Notes under the pieces: generated by a model
Databases searched by the model: none
The model's input: only the letters and a program-made list of their open reading frames with translations
Told to the model about the DNA's origin: nothing
Part shown: positions 6,010 through 21,791 of the stretch, piece by piece
How positions within the stretch are numbered: the stretch's first letter is position 1
Layout: the number at the start of each line of letters is the position of its first letter
DNA from: a virus
Reading direction: 5' to 3' (one strand)
Virus record (IMG/VR): IMGVR_UViG_3300021519_000034
Coordinates: 1 to 34,301 of that record
Length of the DNA: 34,301 nucleotides
Translations under genes and position numbers: made by a program

Positions 6010-6804
6010 TTAAATCCTTTGTGTTAAGGGAAAAGTCATGGCTTTCGCCATTGCGTGTAACAAGCCGGGGCCACAAACTTCGATTACAACATCTTCCTCC
6101 GCGAATTCTCGCGCTAGGTTTTGGAAGTCTTTTACTTGTTGGCACATCCACGGAGCCGCTTTAAACTTTCGCTCGTGAATTGTAGCCGTTATTATATTCT
6201 CGCCATCGTTAGATTCTTGCTTATAAACGTGGTGTTTATCGTCGGAGTAGCTACTGTCCATGCCAAACAGGTAAATCCTGCGATGCCCCTTTAGCTTGGC
6301 AAGAATCATTGCCAACATACCAACCGTAGTAAAACCACCCATAAGGTGCACAGGACGGTCTTTTTCACTCTCCAGGTACTCGTATACCCCTTCGGTCTGA
6401 ACGTGGACTAGATCAACGTTAAAGCCTTCTAGCGCGTCAAATATGCAGGGGTCGCATTGCGAGGCAATATAAAACTGGGTTTCTTTGCGCGGGTGCTGCA
6501 AAAACCTTACGTTTTCAGGTCTTGCGTCTAGCATTACATGACCGTCTGGCACGATTCCCCGTTCTATAAGCCAGTCATAAGTACCGTTCATTGACCAGAC
6601 TTTAGCGCCATTCTGATACCTTGCCTTTAACTGCGGAAAAGACTCATCAAGACTAGGCGCACCGCCGACAATACAAATACTTTCTTCGTTTGACTCCGTA
6701 TCAAAATCAAACCAAGAAAGCTGCCTTTTGCAAGACAGCTCCACATTCCCAAGCATTACGCCTGGGGATGTGTTTCCTACAACATCTAAGACTGCTTCGA
6801 CCAT
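6010..6804 (-). CDS. DUF115-like Rossmann protein
   Basis: 264 residues. A Rossmann-type start (ICIVGGAPSLDESF, about residues 43-56) is followed by VWSMNGTYDWLIERGIVPDG, the MLDARPENV motif and a second strand-loop LMGGFTTVGMLAMILAKLKG, then IYLFGMDSSYSD. These are the hallmarks of the DUF115 / MAF-flagellin-modification superfamily, whose cellular members are linked to sugar transfer or pterin phosphotransfer. In phages the gene occurs in head clusters. Start ATG at 6804 overlaps the upstream TAA by one base. Together with the glycosyltransferase and FkbM genes it hints at virion or host-glycan modification. Confidence 0.75.
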   Translation of the reverse strand: MVEAVLDVVGNTSPGVMLGNVELSCKRQLSWFDFDTESNEESICIVGGAPSLDESFPQLKARYQNGAKVWSMNGTYDWLIERGIVPDGHVMLDARPENVRFLQHPRKETQFYIASQCDPCIFDALEGFNVDLVHVQTEGVYEYLESEKDRPVHLMGGFTTVGMLAMILAKLKGHRRIYLFGMDSSYSDDKHHVYKQESNDGENIITATIHERKFKAAPWMCQQVKDFQNLAREFAEEDVVIEVCGPGLLHAMAKAMTFPLTQRI

Positions 6805-7355
6805 TAAGTGATCTGGCCTTGCAGGTGAGGACGGTTAATCGTTACCGTAACCGTCGAAACGGTCGAGGCAATCGTAGCCAAGTTAGCCGAGCGAGCGCCA
6901 AGAATCTGGAGACCCGCAGAAGCAAGAACCTTAACCCGACCAGCAGTACCGGACAGGAACAAAGTAACTTGTGGCGTAACGGCAACTGCCGTTTTCTTGA
7001 CCACCGCATTACCGTCGATTTGATACCAGCCGAACGTGCCAGCCAAGTTAGCCGACATAGCGACTGCTACGGGGCAAGCCTGGTTACCAGTATTCGGAAC
7101 AAGTACCGTTTGGTAAGTCGTTGCGTTGTACGAAACCAACGAACCGACCACCGTCGAAGCAACGCCAACCAGCATAATAAACTCACCCTCGCCATAGGTC
7201 GGATCGTCAGCACGCACGATCTTACCGAGGACGTTCGGAGGCGTAGGAATGACTGAAGTCGTACCAGTCGAAACGCCACTAGGTGAAGTTACCCCGGTGT
7301 CAATGGTTGCAATCTGAAGCAGACCGCTTTGATTTTCTACAATAGTGTAAGCCAT
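6804..7355 (-). CDS. Putative capsid decoration protein
   Basis: 183 residues with a strong Shine-Dalgarno (AAGGAG) before ATG at 7355. The sequence is all-beta, rich in Thr, Val, Ala and Ser, with few charged residues. It lies 12 bases after the major capsid gene, the usual place for capsid decoration or cement proteins, and contains GEGEFIMLVGVAS and GTFGWYQIDGNAV strands often seen in such proteins. No catalytic motif. The decoration role is inferred from position and composition. Confidence 0.7.
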   Translation of the reverse strand: MAYTIVENQSGLLQIATIDTGVTSPSGVSTGTTSVIPTPPNVLGKIVRADDPTYGEGEFIMLVGVASTVVGSLVSYNATTYQTVLVPNTGNQACPVAVAMSANLAGTFGWYQIDGNAVVKKTAVAVTPQVTLFLSGTAGRVKVLASAGLQILGARSANLATIASTVSTVTVTINRPHLQGQIT

Positions 7356-7367
7356 GTTTTTTCTCCT

Positions 7368-8913
7368 TTAGGCGATCAACACGCCGCAAAATTGCGGCCC
7401 GCTGCTCGTCAAATTACCGGCCCACCCGATTAATTTCACGATTGCGTCTTGGTTCACCGCCTGACGCTCGCCACCAATCGGAACAAAGTTGCGGTCTGCA
7501 TGAGGACGGAACATCATGTACTTGGTGTTCAAGAACCACATGTGGCTAGCAGTAGCAGCCGAACCGATACCACCGTCCAGCACCACGTCAGAAGCCATAC
7601 CCGCGCCATAGTATTTCAGCGAGGCAAAACCAGCACCGGCAGTTGAATTGCCGCTGTCAGAAATGCGCTGAATCGACTGCAAGGACTGCAAGTAAAGCCG
7701 ATAAAAAATATTATCTGCCACAATTAGGTCCGGTTTATCAGTCCCGCGAATCAACTGAACAGCAAGCGAATCCATATACTGTTGGATGTTGGAAGCAGTA
7801 ACAGCAGCACCACCGTTCGTCACGCCCGAATAAGCTACGGACTGCCAGAACGTATAGGTTGCGCGGTTAATACCACCGTAGGTTCCAGAGGTAGGCGCAT
7901 CAGGAACGGCAGCGCCGAGGCCCGTGATGTTCTTTCCGCTGTTGCCGGTTCCGTCCAGATAAATATCCGATCCAATACGGTTAGCCAGCTGCGCTTCAGC
8001 CACATTCATACGACCGTCCAGCAGGTCGATGATCGCCTCTTTGCCGCTGTTCTGGATCATTTCCAGACCGCTAATCGAAACAGCCGATGCGTACTGGGTG
8101 ATACCAAACTGCGCCGCCGAGATGGGGCTGTTTTGTGAAACGTTAAGCACTTCATCAATTTTGTTAACGTTTAGGCTCTTTATCCTAAACTTCAATATGT
8201 CACCATATTGTTCAGACTATATCATCCCTTTCGGGTGGGAAGCTCGTGGGTTCATTACCGCTTTCGCTCGGAACCTAGTCGTTACACCTTCTGTATCCCT
8301 CAGGCTTTCGCCTTACATATACAGCTTGGCTCGGTATTATCTTTAACTTGCTTACGGTTAAAGGTTTTCACCGAATTCATCCCATTTGCTTTGTAAACTT
8401 GCTTAATGCAAATAAACAGAGGGGCTAGAAGTCAACCCTGAATAACTGTTGGTATTATTTGAAGCCGTGTCATTGTACATAATCTCCTGGAGTATGATAT
8501 TCCCGCCGGAAAAAGTCTTCACATTTCCGCGTTCCTTCAGCCTACGCAAGAGCGCATTATTATTTGTTACGTTATCTGCCAGTTCCAGTTTGTTATCGCA
8601 AGGTTCTTTATCCTTGCCTCTATAAGTTACCTTATAGCTCAGACTATATCTTCCCTTTCGGGTTGCGCGCTCGTGGGCCTTTACTGTCCGTTCTGGACTC
8701 CATGACCTAGTCGTTACGCCTTCATTGCATTCCTGCAATGCTTGGCTCGGTATTGCCCATGATGACATTGCTGCCAGCATTAGGGGTTCCACCGAATTCA
8801 CGCAATTTTCCATTTCATCAGTTGCCTAATGAACGGGGGCAATGTTTTTTACCCGAGCGACTTTGAATGTTGGTCGCAATGATGTCACTAACAGAACTAT
8901 TGGCAAATGCCAT
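7368..8913 (-). CDS. Major capsid protein, three exons split by two group I introns
   Basis: Exon 1 is 8913-8851 (21 codons, ATG preceded by AAGGAG), exon 2 is 8585-8435, exon 3 is 8155-7368. Joined, they give 1002 bases, a 333-residue protein. The junctions read SRSG/ELADNVTNNN and NSYSG/Y/EVLNVSQNSP, which restores a continuous capsid sequence; the second junction rebuilds a TAT Tyr codon from T and AT. Without splicing, exon 1 meets TGA at 8820-8818 after 31 codons and exon 2 stops at 8403. The C-terminal part (GGERQAVNQDAIVKLIGWAG) fits a HK97-type capsid fold. The gene sits between scaffold and decoration genes, as expected. Splice sites are inferred from frame, U at the 5' exon end and G at the intron end. 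Confidence 0.9.
8156..8434 (-). ncRNA. Group I intron 2 in the capsid gene (279 nt)
   Basis: The RNA from 8434 to 8156 carries the group I core. P4 pairs CGGU with ACCG (AATTCGGTG and ATACCGAG). P5 closes with CTTTAAC/GTTAAAG. P6 contains AGGC-GAAA-GCCT. P7 pairs GACTA in GTAACGACTAGG with TAGTC in GATATAGTCTGA. P9-type hairpins CAATATG-GTGA-CATATTG and GTTTAGG/CCTAAAC follow. The GATATAGTCTG box and the GTGA-capped hairpin match what I recall of the T4 td intron. The 5' exon ends in GGGT and can pair with GCCC in the intron (P1, with the U.G wobble); the intron ends in G. It has no ORF for an endonuclease. Confidence 0.93.
8586..8850 (-). ncRNA. Group I intron 1 in the capsid gene (265 nt)
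   Basis: The RNA from 8850 to 8586 shares the core of intron 2: AATTCGGTGGAACCCC and AATACCGAGCC (P4/P5), a perfect P6 extension CATTGCA-GGAA-TGCAATG, GTAACGACTAGG with AGATATAGTCTGA (P7), a P8 hairpin GTCC/GGAC, CCC-GAAA-GGG, and P9 hairpins CTATAAG-GTAA-CTTATAG and GCAAGG/CCTTGC. The 5' exon also ends in GGGT with a GCCC guide in the intron, and the intron ends in G. The peripheral loops differ from intron 2, so the pair are related but diverged. No endonuclease gene is inside. A subgroup IA-like type is likely by resemblance to td. Confidence 0.92.
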
Positions 8914-8935: not shown

Positions 8936-9931
8936 TTAAAGCCGGTCACTCATGCTGTCGAATTGCTCAGCAAGTAGCGCCCGACGATCTTGCGCTTTGG
9001 ATTGAGTCGCTGCTCCGGGTGTGGAACCTCGCACACTCACCGCTGCCGCCCTTGCAGCTTTCGCTGCCCTATCGGCCCCTGCTCTTTTCGCCGCGTCTGC
9101 CTGAACTTGTTGGTTCTGGTGGACAGTTTCAAAAAGACCCTGGTCAAGGCGTATAGCTTTCTCATAAGCATCTTGCAAATCGGTCGCAACACCGCTCTGT
9201 AGGAGCTGGATCATTACAGGCCGCGCTTCTTCAAAATGCTCTGCTTTTTGGGAAAATTGATTTATCTCTCCCAACAAAACTTGATTCTGTTGTTGTTCCT
9301 GCTGCTGCTTCCAGTTTTGTACCTCGCCACGAACCGAATTCAGTTCGTTTTGCAAAGCATAAAACTGCGGATCAACAGGGGCTTGTTGTTGCAAGCCACC
9401 TACATCGCTTAAATTTATACCATAACTTTGCGCTAGTCTAGCGAAATATTGCTGCTTTTCATGGGGTTGGCTAGTCCGCAAGATATGGTCAGCTTCCATC
9501 AGAGCTTTAACCGCTTTTGGCGCGTCAATCCCCAGGCCGGTAATCGTTTGCATATACGGTGCGATTACCTCTTGCATCTGGTCGGCATACTGCGCTTTAG
9601 ACTTTAGCGGCTCGATGCCTGCCTTCATTTGTTCTTCGCGCTGGAAGGCGTATTCCTTTAGCTTATCGTCCGCACCTTGCCAGACCTCGTGATAATCCTT
9701 TTTCCAGCTTGCAGGAGGACGTTTCCAGACGGGTTCTTCAACCGCTTCTGTGGCTGCTGGAGCCGCTTCAGGCGCGGGTTTCGCATACTTGCCCGTATTG
9801 TCGCGTGCGGGTTCAGCCGCTGGAGACGGCTTTTCGGTTGGAGCCGCTTCTACCTCGTCAAACTGCTGTGCAAGCAAATCACGGCGTGCATCTGCATTTT
9901 CTACCGGGACAATCTCATTTAGGTCTGCCAT
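8936..9931 (-). CDS. Capsid scaffold protein
   Basis: 331 residues, acidic and helical, with an Ala/Pro/Glu-rich linker (residues 28-70), a WKRPPASWKKDYHEVW motif, a long Gln-rich coiled coil (about 190-225) and an Ala/Arg-rich tail. Similar proteins directly upstream of the capsid gene act as scaffolds during head assembly. The short motif RRDLLAQQFD near the N-terminus recurs as RRALLAEQFD at the C-terminus, an internal repeat that may be the capsid-binding end. No protease domain is visible. Confidence 0.85.
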   Translation of the reverse strand: MADLNEIVPVENADARRDLLAQQFDEVEAAPTEKPSPAAEPARDNTGKYAKPAPEAAPAATEAVEEPVWKRPPASWKKDYHEVWQGADDKLKEYAFQREEQMKAGIEPLKSKAQYADQMQEVIAPYMQTITGLGIDAPKAVKALMEADHILRTSQPHEKQQYFARLAQSYGINLSDVGGLQQQAPVDPQFYALQNELNSVRGEVQNWKQQQEQQQNQVLLGEINQFSQKAEHFEEARPVMIQLLQSGVATDLQDAYEKAIRLDQGLFETVHQNQQVQADAAKRAGADRAAKAARAAAVSVRGSTPGAATQSKAQDRRALLAEQFDSMSDRL

Positions 9932-12962: not shown

Positions 12963-13868
12963 TTATTCTCGTCCTATTATTTTAGGCAACGCATCATCAA
13001 ACACTACAAAGTTGCTAGTTCCAGCTTTTCCCGTTCTACTGCCTGCGTCTAGGTAGCGTATGCCGGGGATGCCCATACCGTTTAGCATAGCCGACACCTT
13101 GCTATCGCCGTAAGTTCTAACAAGCCTGCCATATGTTTGCTGCCCCAACTCATTAGCATCATAATCACTGCCTTTGGGGTGGTAGGTGTCTTTGTCTATT
13201 TTTGCCAAAGCATCACGCAACGCTTTCGGCTGTTGACTAAACGGCTTATCCCAATCCAACATCTTTGCTATGTGTTCGTCGGGGAGGTCTACTTTGTAGA
13301 GATACCCTTGATTGCCTTGTCCCTCTGTTAATTCTTTAATAGCATTTAAGTAACCTTTTTTAGCTGCCGGATTGTCCGTTGTTGCCGCTTTACCCCTTGC
13401 ATATGTAATTTGTTTTGCTAATTCTTCTGGAAACAGTTTAGGGCCAGCTAACATTTCTCGATAAGCTGTTCCAGTTGACGGATTCTCCGCAAAATACAGC
13501 CCATGCCCGTAAGCCTGCGCCCCCTCGCCCGTTCCAATCTTGCTCATGTCGAACTTGTCAAACTTGTACGGGGAGCCGTGAAACACGGTCATTCCCGCCA
13601 GTCCAACATCGTTCATTTTTTGCATATAGTTAGGGTCGGCTTCGTACCCTTGCTTTGCCATGATCGGCCCTGCACCCGTAGGCAAAATATCTTGCAACCC
13701 ACCTTTCAGCAAACCAGAAAGCCTACGCCCTATATCACCGTAAAACTGCGGATCGCGCAAAGCACCGCCGATATATTCTGGCGATTGAATGGCAGCGGCA
13801 AGCGGACTAGGCATAGCCTGATCCTGCTGGTAACGCAATGCGGCAGCTAAACGGTCAGCGTCAGCCAT
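12963..13868 (-). CDS. ADP-ribosyltransferase-like protein (ART-PolyVal type)
   Basis: 301 residues. After an N-terminal leader shared with the gene at 14158-14583 (DRLAAAL-YQQ), the C-terminal two thirds match the phage polyvalent ART fold: VFHGSPYKFDKFDMSKIG (His97), GEGAQAYGHGLYFAENP (Tyr125), and the closing segment GIPGIRYLDAGSR followed by SNFVVFDDALPKI. These are the H and Y positions of the H-Y-[EQ] type of ARTs. Such domains are often carried on injected phage proteins and may modify host proteins soon after entry. Substrate unknown; activity not shown. Confidence 0.8.
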   Translation of the reverse strand: MADADRLAAALRYQQDQAMPSPLAAAIQSPEYIGGALRDPQFYGDIGRRLSGLLKGGLQDILPTGAGPIMAKQGYEADPNYMQKMNDVGLAGMTVFHGSPYKFDKFDMSKIGTGEGAQAYGHGLYFAENPSTGTAYREMLAGPKLFPEELAKQITYARGKAATTDNPAAKKGYLNAIKELTEGQGNQGYLYKVDLPDEHIAKMLDWDKPFSQQPKALRDALAKIDKDTYHPKGSDYDANELGQQTYGRLVRTYGDSKVSAMLNGMGIPGIRYLDAGSRTGKAGTSNFVVFDDALPKIIGRE

Positions 13869-14158: not shown

Positions 14159-14583
14159 TATTGTTGTCCCGCTTTAATTTTTAGCCAATCCGCCTCGGTT
14201 GCGCCAACAGCATCAGGGTTTACGCCTTTTGCTTGCATATAATATTCTTTCCACGCGGTCGGGTGTGTTGCTGATTTCAGCATTTCGCCGGTTGAAGTTG
14301 AAGAAGGCCAATGGTAACGATTGCTGTCATAAGGATCGCGTTCTGGTCTAATACCAGCACTCCATGCTTTACGGTAATCATAATTAGCGTTTTTGCTTAA
14401 ATCTGGAGTTTCGCCATATTGTTTTGTAAACTCTGAATACCACGGACTAGCCGCTATTTCTCTTTGGAATTGGATTTCTTTACCTTGCGCGGCTATGTTT
14501 GGGTTCATCATTTGAGGACGAGCTGCCGCCTCCAATTCTTGTTGATACTGTAACGCTGCGGCTAAACGGTCGGTATCAGCCAT
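14158..14583 (-). CDS. Hypothetical protein sharing the N-terminal leader of the ART-like protein
   Basis: 141 residues. Residues 1-16 (MADTDRLAAALQYQQE) are nearly the same as the start of the ADP-ribosyltransferase-like protein two genes downstream; the rest differs (FTKQYGETPDLSKNANYDYR, WPSSTSTGEMLKSATH). No enzyme motif. The common leader followed by unrelated bodies suggests a portable targeting or packaging tag. The start overlaps the FkbM gene by 8 bases. Confidence 0.7.
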   Translation of the reverse strand: MADTDRLAAALQYQQELEAAARPQMMNPNIAAQGKEIQFQREIAASPWYSEFTKQYGETPDLSKNANYDYRKAWSAGIRPERDPYDSNRYHWPSSTSTGEMLKSATHPTAWKEYYMQAKGVNPDAVGATEADWLKIKAGQQ

Positions 14584-15187
14584 GAGTAAATATCACATCC
14601 TTGTTAACTCGGTCGGCTATCTTGTAACCCATAAACCGCAACCAAGTGATGGTTTCATCGTCGGTGTACCCGTACCGCTCGCCCAAACCCTTAAGCTCTA
14701 ACGTGATCACAGGCCAGCCTGCTTCAATCGTGGCAATTGCGCCTAGCAACGCCTCATGCTCCGACCCTTCAACATCAAGCTGGAGCAAATCGCAATCGGT
14801 AACTCCCAAGCTATCAATTGGGATCACCGCAAACTCGTTACCCTGCTTGATTTGATGAGCGCCACTATTGTCAGGATAAATCCTGTCTATAGCAGCTCTG
14901 CCATGTACCCGTCCAAATGCCGCGCGTCTGCTTACAATATTCCTTGCGTTGCAGGTGTTAGCTTCCAACGCCTCGTAGTTATCCACATCCGGCTCGACCG
15001 TATATACAACAGCAAACTTTTCTGCGAGCGCCAGAGGATAAACGCCGATATTGCCGCCAGCCTGTATAACTGTCCTGAAGTCCTTGCACAAATCCAAACT
15101 AAAACCTAGATCACCCACTTCATCAAGCGCCGCAGCTAGGCAATGCTCGTCGGTTTCAGGTACGAAATAGCCTCTACGCGACCGCAT
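14576..15187 (-). CDS. FkbM-family methyltransferase
   Basis: The likely start is ATG at 15187 (MRSRRGYFVPETDEHCL), giving 203 residues and a 14-base overlap with the glycosyltransferase; an earlier ATG at 15235 would lie deeper in that gene. The SAM-binding motif I is VIQAGGNIGVYPLALA (about 40-55), followed by VYTVEPDVDNYEAL with Glu65, and later LLQLDVEGSEHEALLGA, the DVEG motif typical of FkbM enzymes. These usually O-methylate sugars or small molecules. It follows a glycosyltransferase, so a sugar target is likely, but this is inference. Confidence 0.88.
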   Translation of the reverse strand: MRSRRGYFVPETDEHCLAAALDEVGDLGFSLDLCKDFRTVIQAGGNIGVYPLALAEKFAVVYTVEPDVDNYEALEANTCNARNIVSRRAAFGRVHGRAAIDRIYPDNSGAHQIKQGNEFAVIPIDSLGVTDCDLLQLDVEGSEHEALLGAIATIEAGWPVITLELKGLGERYGYTDDETITWLRFMGYKIADRVNKDVIFTHG

Positions 15188-15770
15188 ATTGCACCCTTGT
15201 CTGCTCCCACGGCCGAGGTTTCCCGTGAAACACAATCACCTTATCCCGCGCTCTTACGCCATGCTCCAGCACGTCAGCCTTAAAGCTGCACACACCGTCC
15301 GTAATGTCTTGCCAATAAGTAACGGGTTCGTTTCGGAGTGCGTGTTCAAGGTAAATCTGGTCACCTCCTTCGCAGTACCGTTCGCCGGTCTTAAACTCAT
15401 CGTAGAGAAACCCGTGCGGCTTTGACCACCACATCAAGCTGCTTTGCATCGCCAACGGGTTACGCTTGCCTCTGTATATGTCGCGCATAATCACAAAATC
15501 ATGCGGTCTTGCTGCTTCTAACATCTCGCTGCAATCTCCCACCAGAACCGTATCCAAATCCATGTACAACGCGCTTGGCAGCCTGAACAGCTCTAGCTTT
15601 GACCACCAACCCTCCCATCCGTGAATCAGCGGGATAGTGGCGCAATCTAGCGTCATATCGGTCAGGCAAACAAAGTCCTCATTCGGCAAGTATTTAGCGC
15701 ACATCTCCTGCAACGCATAAACATGAGCCGGTTTGAAGTCACCACCTGACTTTAGAACGCAAGCAATCAC
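15174..15770 (-). CDS. GT8-like glycosyltransferase
   Basis: 198 residues from a GTG start at 15770 (coupled by a 4-base GTGA overlap to the small gene upstream). The central motif LYMDLDTVLVGD contains DLD at residues 71-73, the metal-binding DxD of GT-A enzymes; it is followed by FVIMRDIYRGK, MWWSKPHGFLYDEF and GGDQIYLEHAL. This is the pattern of short glycosyltransferases that use nucleotide sugars. It may act with the downstream FkbM methyltransferase. Whether the target is a virion protein or host polysaccharide cannot be told from sequence. Confidence 0.85.
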   Translation of the reverse strand: MIACVLKSGGDFKPAHVYALQEMCAKYLPNEDFVCLTDMTLDCATIPLIHGWEGWWSKLELFRLPSALYMDLDTVLVGDCSEMLEAARPHDFVIMRDIYRGKRNPLAMQSSLMWWSKPHGFLYDEFKTGERYCEGGDQIYLEHALRNEPVTYWQDITDGVCSFKADVLEHGVRARDKVIVFHGKPRPWEQTRVQYAVA

Positions 15771-20223: not shown

Positions 20224-20570
20224 TGCTCTACTCCTTTTTGTGCCGGTATTTTTATTCCCGCATGATGAGAAGCCGCGTTTAACCAATCCAACCATTCAGA
20301 AAACCGCTTTTTACCGTAACGGCTTGTCCTTCTGCCTAACATCACGACCCCGCCCTCAAGTCCTGGTGCAAGTCTGGGTGCTGTTTCGCCCTCAAAGGTC
20401 GCAGTCAGTACGTCCTTCCATTCCTCGTCGTTCAGCCAGCACATAACCCCGTTTATAGGCCATTGTTTTTGTTCAGCCCATGCTCGCAAAATAGGCCATT
20501 GCAAAGCGTTTTGCCCTGCGTTTCTCCGTTCCTCGCAAACTGGGCATAAGGTTACAAAAGCAATTGTCAT
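20220..20570 (-). CDS. ninB: NinB-family recombination protein
   Basis: 116 residues from ATG at 20570 (overlapping the methyltransferase stop as ATGA). The segment ALQWPILRAWAEQKQWPIN and the later LNDEEWKDVLTATFEGE, PRLAPGLEGGVVMLGRRTSR and WLDWLNAAS are hallmarks of NinB (Orf), the lambda protein that replaces RecFOR and binds ssDNA and SSB. It fits with ERF, YqaJ, Ref and VRR-NUC in this phage. It lies directly downstream of the two-frame methyltransferase region. Confidence 0.9.
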   Translation of the reverse strand: MTIAFVTLCPVCEERRNAGQNALQWPILRAWAEQKQWPINGVMCWLNDEEWKDVLTATFEGETAPRLAPGLEGGVVMLGRRTSRYGKKRFSEWLDWLNAASHHAGIKIPAQKGVEQ

Positions 20571-21228
20571 TTCAGTAGCCTCCATGCTGTTTCTGCCACT
20601 CTTGGAATTTGTCCATTTCCAATGGCTTTAAGTCTGTCCATTCTAGCGGCCACCCCATTAGCCACTCGACCCACGGCGGGTTCAATTGGCCAGAGTTTTG
20701 ATCCACCGATTGACTGAGCATTATTTGTTTCCCCATTGCAACTCTCCGCTGAATAGAAGGGTTGCTCATATTTCCCCGATCCCGATTGTCGGATGCTTGA
20801 GGTGTCGGAAACTTCCGCATTGCTACCGTAGCCGCTAATGTTGGCGTTTTTCTGAGGAATTCCGCTGGATATGCTGCTTCTTTTGCATTGTGCGCTGTTG
20901 GAGTAGGCCAATTTTCCATGCGTTTCTTGAGTGCTTTCCGACTGTTGCTTCCCCCGTCCAAGCCCCCTGTCGTTGGCGTGTGGAAGAAAGTTTCGTTGTT
21001 CGGCTCTGATCCAAATTCGCTCTCTAAGATGGGGCGCACCGACGTCTGCCGCTGATACAACTCCCCATTTTGCATCAAACCCCAACGCGGCAAGGTCACA
21101 GAGGACGGTTTCAAGTCCTCGAATAGTGAGCATTGGGCTGTTTTCAATGAATGCGTACTGGGGTCGTACCTCCCCAATAATCCTTGCCATGTGTTTCCAC
21201 ATGGAACTTCTGCTTCCAGTAATGCCTG
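20567..21228 (-). CDS. Methyltransferase C-terminal half in the alternative frame (needs 8 or 11 G)
   Basis: This frame holds the missing parts of the cytosine methyltransferase: SSMWKHMARIIGEVRP, the ENSP motif (AFIENSPMLTIRGL), GAPHLRERIWI and the closing AIGNGQIPRVAETAWRLL. It is joined to the N-terminal half only if the G-run at 21229-21238 is read as 8 or 11 G; then the protein would be about 305-306 residues. Its TGA overlaps ninB as ATGA. It may be made by ribosomal or polymerase slippage, by phase variation, or the frameshift could be a sequencing error. An internal ATG at 21202 could also start the fragment. Confidence 0.8.
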
Positions 21229-21486
21229 CCCCCCCCCCGCAGAGCTGATGTCCTGGCAGGGAAACCCGCCAGATACGACATCAACAATGCCTCGCCACGG
21301 TTTTCCGTCAAAGGTTTGAACGTCATCCCAAATCGGGAAAGGCGGGAAAATGCCGTCATTTTGTCTTGCGACAAGTACGCTTGCGGGGTAGGGTTCCCAT
21401 TCAACGGCACAGACGGTTCGCCATCCCAAGAGTTTTCCTCCGAGTATGCCTCCACCAGCGCCTGCGAAAAGAGCCAGCTCATTCAT
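20572..21486 (-). CDS. Cytosine-5 DNA methyltransferase N-half fused to an overlapping conserved-looking frame
   Basis: As given, ATG at 21486 (ATGA overlap with the upstream gene) reads motif I (LALFAGAGGGILGG) and motif IV (GGFPCQDIS, catalytic Cys77), then the run of ten G. At ten G it enters a second frame, open to 20572 (304 residues in all). That frame does not contain MTase motifs but has RYDPSTHSLKTAQCSLFEDL, TLPRWGLMQNGELYQ, repeated TPT/TPQ motifs and QLNPPWVEWLMGWPLEW, a pattern I recall from phage methylase-associated proteins. So both frames look selected. As read, this product lacks motifs VI, VIII and X and is unlikely to methylate DNA by itself. Confidence 0.75.
   Translation of the reverse strand: MNELALFAGAGGGILGGKLLGWRTVCAVEWEPYPASVLVARQNDGIFPPFPIWDDVQTFDGKPWRGIVDVVSGGFPCQDISSAGGGQALLEAEVPCGNTWQGLLGRYDPSTHSLKTAQCSLFEDLKPSSVTLPRWGLMQNGELYQRQTSVRPILESEFGSEPNNETFFHTPTTGGLDGGSNSRKALKKRMENWPTPTAHNAKEAAYPAEFLRKTPTLAATVAMRKFPTPQASDNRDRGNMSNPSIQRRVAMGKQIMLSQSVDQNSGQLNPPWVEWLMGWPLEWTDLKPLEMDKFQEWQKQHGGY
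21229..21238 (-). repeat. Ten-G homopolymer inside the methyltransferase gene
   Basis: The minus strand has GC followed by ten G and CAGGCATT, directly after the catalytic PCQDISSA segment. Runs of this length are prone to slipped-strand changes and to RNA polymerase slippage, and also to base-calling or assembly error. Ten G puts translation in the overlapping frame; a count of 8 or 11 restores the full methyltransferase. Confidence 0.95.
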
Positions 21487-21791
21487 ACCTCCCCAAACAT
21501 TTCTTGCTGGCCTCGTTTTATTGCAAACCAAATACGGCACATACGTCCAGTAGCGCCTTTAGCTTTGCCTTCAGTTTTTACTAGATTTAAACTTTCCAGC
21601 TCACTCATTCTTCTGGCAACTTGGTTTGCATCTAAGCCAGTTCTTTCCGCAATATCGTAAATAGTGCCGGGTTTATTTAAAGCGCAAATAATTATGAAAT
21701 GATGGTGTTCTGCAAGATTGACTGCTTGTGCAGCCGCCGCATGACTTGTTTCAGGATCATTAGTTCTAACTCGCGGAAAAAACATTTTCAT
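21483..21791 (-). CDS. Winged-helix DNA-binding protein
   Basis: 102 residues. After a Ser-His-Ala-rich start (NDPETSHAAAAQAVNLAEHH) the sequence has a winged-helix layout: IIICALNKPGTIYDIAERTG, LDANQVARRMSELESLNLVK and a wing around TEGKAKGATGRMCRIW. Such small MarR-like proteins are common in phage early regions; they may control transcription or assist replication. It is coupled to the methyltransferase by ATGA and to the upstream gene by 4 bases. Confidence 0.8.
   Translation of the reverse strand: MKMFFPRVRTNDPETSHAAAAQAVNLAEHHHFIIICALNKPGTIYDIAERTGLDANQVARRMSELESLNLVKTEGKAKGATGRMCRIWFAIKRGQQEMFGEV

Follow-up and report, generated by a model that had tools for sequence, protein, structure and literature searches.

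Two putatively self-splicing group I introns in the major capsid gene of a phage contig, with relatives at many positions of the same gene family

The capsid locus and its spliced product

The window analysed here, meaning the whole stretch of DNA, is a linear viral contig of 34,301 bases from a metagenome. The capsid reading frame lies on the minus strand from 8913 to 7368 and is broken twice. Excision of 8850-8586 (265 nt) and 8434-8156 (279 nt) joins three segments, 8913-8851, 8585-8435 and 8155-7368, into a 1002-nt frame encoding 333 amino acids with no internal stops. A preliminary description of the sequence had placed two introns here, and its coordinates, frame and junctions were right: an independent splice-aware protein-to-DNA alignment, with a script that presumes a U before the intron and a G at its end, returned the same two introns, the first in phase 0 after residue 21 and the second in phase 1 after residue 71. 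The unspliced translation does, as had been stated, stop soon after codon 21 and again after exon 2, running about 10 codons into either intron. The features of the locus are as follows.

8936..9931, minus strand: upstream neighbour of the capsid gene, at the scaffold position, 331 aa, in the same place as Mx8 p47
8851..8913, minus strand: capsid exon 1, residues 1-21, 3' end CUCGGGU (splice-aware alignment, intact alleles)
8586..8850, minus strand: group I intron 1, 265 nt, phase 0 after residue 21 (RF00028, 61.6 bits; empty sites in relatives; a 256-nt form at the same site in contig L174)
8435..8585, minus strand: capsid exon 2, residues 22-71 and the first base of codon 72, 3' end UCAGGGU (splice-aware alignment, intact alleles)
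8156..8434, minus strand: group I intron 2, 279 nt, phase 1 in codon 72 (RF00028, 46.7 bits; identical copy in contigs L002, L116 and L127)
7368..8155, minus strand: capsid exon 3, remainder of codon 72 through residue 333 and the stop (splice-aware alignment)
6804..7355, minus strand: downstream neighbour, virion structural protein, PHROG 29386, in the same place as Mx8 p49

The spliced protein matches PHROG 9953 (phrog_9953, major head protein) over residues 4-333 with an E value of 4.7e-102, and is 51-53% identical to the intact major capsid proteins of Myxococcus phage Mx8 and Stenotrophomonas phage BUCT555. The genes run in the order terminase, portal, upstream gene at the scaffold position, capsid and virion structural protein, and the 331-aa upstream product gave no match to a PHROG. 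The full-length family match together with this conserved gene order identifies the product as an Mx8-family major capsid protein, and the order would fit an Mx8-like podovirus.

Other genes on the minus strand of the window drew our attention in passing. Between the terminase and portal genes (14576-15770) are a gene for an FkbM-type methyltransferase and one of unknown family encoding 198 aa, and the portal gene is adjoined by a protein (12963-13868) with a weak, below-cut-off match to the ADP-ribosyltransferase of polyvalent proteins. A 322-aa ORF (20572-21540) matches C5 cytosine methylases over residues 22-103 only; the overlapping ORF 20567-21202 may hold the rest, and the gene may be frameshifted or interrupted.

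Group I folds and splice junctions

The preliminary description had noted group I cores in both excised pieces (P4, P7, GNRA-capped hairpins, a 5' exon ending in U and an intron ending in G), and these are present in the sequence. Its further suggestion, a search with the group I model RF00028, gave a match to the whole model at both sites: 8860-8620 scored 61.6 bits against a gathering score of 50, and 8443-8193 scored 46.7 bits (E 1.7e-10), slightly under that score. The elements placed within the two introns are the following.

8837..8840, minus strand: intron 1 guide (IGS) GCCC, pairing with exon GGGU with a U.G pair at the splice site (P1)
8794-8791/8751-8748, minus strand: intron 1 P4
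8642..8712, minus strand: 3' half of the intron 1 core, with P7 (8712-8708/8646-8642), P3' (8668-8663 with 8805-8800) and P8 (8662-8653, GAAA loop)
8620..8637, minus strand: intron 1 P9 hairpin, GUAA loop
8422..8425, minus strand: intron 2 guide GCCC (P1 with GGGU)
8215..8280, minus strand: intron 2 core, with P7 at 8280-8276/8219-8215

Both introns have P4 as CGGU/ACCG, P7 as GACUA/UAGUC, a GAAA-capped P8 and a GNRA-capped P9, and the P3/P7 pseudoknot core of a group I intron is present. In each, the guide pairing is GGGU/GCCC, the preceding exon ends in U, the intron ends in G, and the boundaries match those of intact alleles. P1 is short in both, at 4 bp. The ACUUC that precedes the intron 2 guide can pair with GAAGU in exon 3 as a 5-bp P10, which should favour correct joining.

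Support for the fold also comes from comparison of 17 introns of the same gene family, with helices placed from intron 1 and a control in which the partner strand was slid by 1-3 columns. The core helices P3, P4, P6, P6a, P7, P8, P9 and P9.1 were 92.7% paired, compared with 30-46% when slid, and the covariation score was 0.479 as opposed to at most 0.142 for slid and 0.152 for shuffled alignments. Covariation was located in P3, P6a, P9 and P9.1; P4 and P7 are nearly invariant, and P8 is the weakest helix on the alignment.

The junctions are fixed to the base by the close relatives, most of which have an uninterrupted gene, as do most of 80 IMG/VR relatives found at the protein level. Comparison with phage capsid homologues, another check that had been proposed, upheld the joins: the intact proteins hold exactly the joined residues, SG^EL and SG-Y-E, with nothing gained or lost, and alleles up to 98% identical in exon 3 are precisely without both introns. 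A mark of the guide is also left in the exon. Codon 71 (Gly) is GGG in 16/16 distinct genes with an intron at the second site and in 2/141 without one, the others having nearly all GGC, GGT or GGA; we attribute this to the need of the guide GCCC for GGGU in the splice-site helix, and co-inheritance with the intron may explain part of it, since the filled alleles are related. Similarly, codon 27 is GUU in 42/42 carriers of an intron after residue 27 and in 10/111 other genes, a count that, unlike that for GGG, is partly built in by an alignment that forces U before the intron.

Contigs from other metagenomes hold intron 2 without a single change, and intron 1 is found again in L174, so that neither is an assembly error; the recurrence in independent contigs likewise rules out a frameshift. 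An intein is ruled out by the stops and RNA cores within the inserts. That the gene is a decayed pseudogene or an assembly chimera, with inserts that are inactive remnants, might be entertained for a linear metagenome contig in which splicing is read from sequence. All three exons are intact, however, with exon 3 97-100% identical to that of uninterrupted or otherwise intact relatives, and the inserts are exact, keep their guide pairing and core helices and occur in other contigs, which makes this reading very improbable. We therefore regard the major capsid gene as interrupted by two group I introns that are predicted to splice themselves out to give one 333-aa protein, a conclusion to which we assign a probability of about 94%.

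The two guides appear to be interchangeable. Pairing of guide with exon was calculated at -5.7 to -6.6 kcal/mol in all four combinations, and the intron 2 guide pairs as well with exon 1 as with exon 2 (-5.9 and -5.8 kcal/mol). Because of this equality, skipping of exon 2, which would cost another 151 nt and the reading frame, is a specific possible side reaction.

Related introns across the capsid gene family

Introns in related capsid genes were found after residues 21, 27, 28, 52, 57, 68, 71 (in two phases), 82, 94, 109, 140, 145, 150 and 309, with up to three in one gene. RF00028 matched at E <=0.001 for 13 of these positions; residue 309 was assigned by similarity to the introns at 52 and 150 alone, and residue 94 lay outside the RF00028 testing. 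One to three introns were present in 80/161 distinct genes examined, a sample biased to intron hits, and a sample drawn by protein only had an intron in 11/68 full-length distinct genes. L237 was omitted, its capsid being too divergent for junction placement. Two distant homologues, L106 and L117, have insertions of about 954 nt near capsid residue 155 with junctions unplaced.

Filled and empty alleles at the same site occur in close relatives, as looked for in a mobile intron. The window introns (265 and 279 nt) have no ORF of endonuclease size and thus no homing endonuclease, whereas the residue-27 introns of relatives carry a GIY-YIG endonuclease (PF01541). At residue 71, L131, L132 and L169 have introns of 851-898 nt with endonuclease-like ORFs antisense to intron and capsid gene, as in mycobacteriophage LittleE, and the one such ORF tested, that of L169, holds a NUMOD3 motif.

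In 35 records chosen mostly for capsid introns, 30/30 RF00028 matches fell inside the capsid gene, and 49 relatives with intact capsid genes gave 0 matches anywhere; since some introns with endonucleases escape RF00028 and many of the records are fragmentary, this confinement holds for detectable introns. Their restriction to the most highly made structural protein would suit a regulatory role, in which splicing would hold back or meter the supply of capsid protein and be selected rather than merely tolerated. Presence is nevertheless patchy even in near-identical phages, and most relatives have no intron at all, a pattern more readily explained by a mobile element than by a fixed control; we consider a regulatory role improbable.

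Viral contigs were also scanned with a pattern built from the intron core and free of exon sequence, which matched 106 times in 105 stretches. Forty-five of the matches lie in capsid introns with placed junctions, about nine more in copies of the same gene that are truncated or in relatives of it that are unresolved, and the remaining half or so mainly in other phage genes, shares that are biased by derivation of the pattern from the window's own introns. Core relatives were seen in SU10-type capsid genes (PF17236; L141, L147, L155, L160, L171, L172 and others), with isolated examples in tape measure genes, in genes for B-family polymerase (PolB) and in capsid genes of further families (PF21703, PF25209). 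In general, capsid genes look like preferred intron targets. When phage records were searched by similarity, the only matches were to short stretches of intron (about 70-90 nt, at 78-86%), in phages of staphylococci, enterococci and lactobacilli; the same kind of search of plasmids gave no match. Two matches to an 18-mer scan with intron 2 (L264, L266) are chance hits and not introns.

In two cases, near-identical introns lie at two different sites of the gene. Intron 1, at residue 21, is 93% identical over 256 columns to the intron after residue 145 in L094. Scanning for its 5' region found it elsewhere only in L094 and, at residue 21, in L174, and its best relative outside the capsid gene is about 71% identical. 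Sites 21 and 145 share CTCGGGT 5' of the insertion and essentially nothing 3' of it. The introns at residues 52 and 150, each site being represented by several contigs, are mostly 90-94% identical between closest members, and the tree of this set gives no resolved direction. Only close pairs were used, since several deep nodes of the whole-set intron tree are poorly supported. Seven of 15 occupied sites end in GGT, compared with 7.5% of U positions in intact genes (p 5e-5, the sites not being fully independent).

Homing copies an intron into the same site, whereas reverse splicing would be expected to leave introns at different sites with nothing but the guide target in common. The two intron pairs thus point to ectopic spread within the capsid gene, probably by guide-directed reverse splicing. 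In its full form, the proposal that endonuclease-free introns jump from site to site in the Mx8-like capsid gene by guide-directed reverse splicing into abundant mRNA, with those at residues 21 and 145 as direct products, is a tentative one that we hold at somewhat under even odds. The sites could instead have been filled independently from other phages by homing endonucleases of relaxed specificity, as the several kinds of endonuclease ORF in relatives (GIY-YIG, and antisense with a NUMOD3 motif) would allow. About half of the core-pattern matches lie in other genes, and introns from different sites are for the most part no more than about 78-85% alike, as independent arrival would also have it; against this, the closest known introns for both pairs are in the same gene and their insertion points share only guide-matching 5' bases. 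Independent arrival is quite possible, and we lean against it. The two pairs could also have come from an unsampled donor beyond the capsid gene, or from endonucleases acting with relaxed specificity. Direct duplication of intron 1 into the second site of the window genome is unsupported, the two window introns being 78% alike and no closer than many pairs in the family.

Proposed mechanism and comparison with known systems

We propose that the two ORF-less introns would remove themselves from the late capsid mRNA, each folding separately. The guide GCCC would pair with the GGGU closing each 5' exon, guanosine would attack after the U at that exon's end, and the last G of the intron would then be set for exon joining, to yield the single capsid protein. 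The window introns would belong to a population of group I introns occupying about 15 capsid gene positions in related phages. Some members, such as those with GIY-YIG endonucleases at residue 27, would spread by filling the corresponding site of empty alleles; short introns such as those of the window may have lost the endonuclease or travel without it. A minority would have moved to new capsid-gene positions; the most likely route is reverse splicing into capsid mRNA, which is abundant, at short stretches complementary to the guide, with reverse transcription and recombination as the later steps.

Group I introns in phage genes, capsid genes included, are already known, and the two in the window are a further case. 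The preliminary description was right that one phage capsid gene here holds two, and its view that this is unusual calls for some qualification, given the multi-intron capsid gene known in a crAss-like phage (PMC7886860), the spliced capsid intron of LittleE (PMC3706429) and the many close relatives with introns in the same gene. We found no description of introns in Mx8-like capsid genes in the open-access literature searched, and what merits following up is the multiplicity of introns in this gene together with the two ectopic pairs. Concentrated in the capsid gene of a small phage lineage are empty alleles, short introns, endonuclease-bearing introns and apparent jumps within the gene, so that the family offers a protein-coding phage system for testing movement of introns by reverse splicing. 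Capsid genes of this kind will look broken in metagenomes unless annotators consider introns.

One close parallel, a phage major capsid gene with several group I introns, is that of the crAss-like phage (Zeta group) OLRF01000054, which is reported to be in five fragments with intron-type domains in 3/4 gaps (PMC7886860). That phage is large, comes from the gut and shows introns, inteins and recoding across many of its genes (PMC7886860), whereas the small Mx8-like phage described here has detectable introns in its capsid gene only, where alleles with and without introns occur alongside each other. In LittleE, too, a late capsid gene has a group I-like intron, and its splicing was demonstrated by RT-PCR and N-terminal sequencing (PMC3706429). 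A piece related to that intron lies in a tail gene of other phages; LittleE differs in having one intron with an antisense LAGLIDADG-like ORF, and its capsid is of the HK97 gp5 type with a delta domain, relatedness to the Mx8 type not being established here (PMC3706429).

Three group I introns in one gene, the maximum in our family, are reported for phage Twort (Landthaler and Shub 1999, as cited in PMC11878797). Exon skipping has been observed in Twort and in SIOphi, in the latter for the terminase (PMC11878797). Twort and the Bastillevirinae, whose PolB and TerL introns average about 800 nt, differ in being phages of Gram-positive hosts with introns in genes other than capsid (PMC11878797). 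Faustovirus E12 has five group I introns in its major capsid gene, two with GIY-YIG ORFs, but is a eukaryotic giant virus with additional spliceosome-like introns (PMC6247863). For movement between sites, reverse splicing has been reviewed as a route without direct experimental evidence, with rDNA as the best circumstantial case (PMC3984707). Among fungal rDNA group I introns, related introns occupy different sites of one gene and guide-directed reverse splicing has been invoked (PMC1299323); there the targets are nuclear rRNA genes, and here the gene is a phage protein gene.
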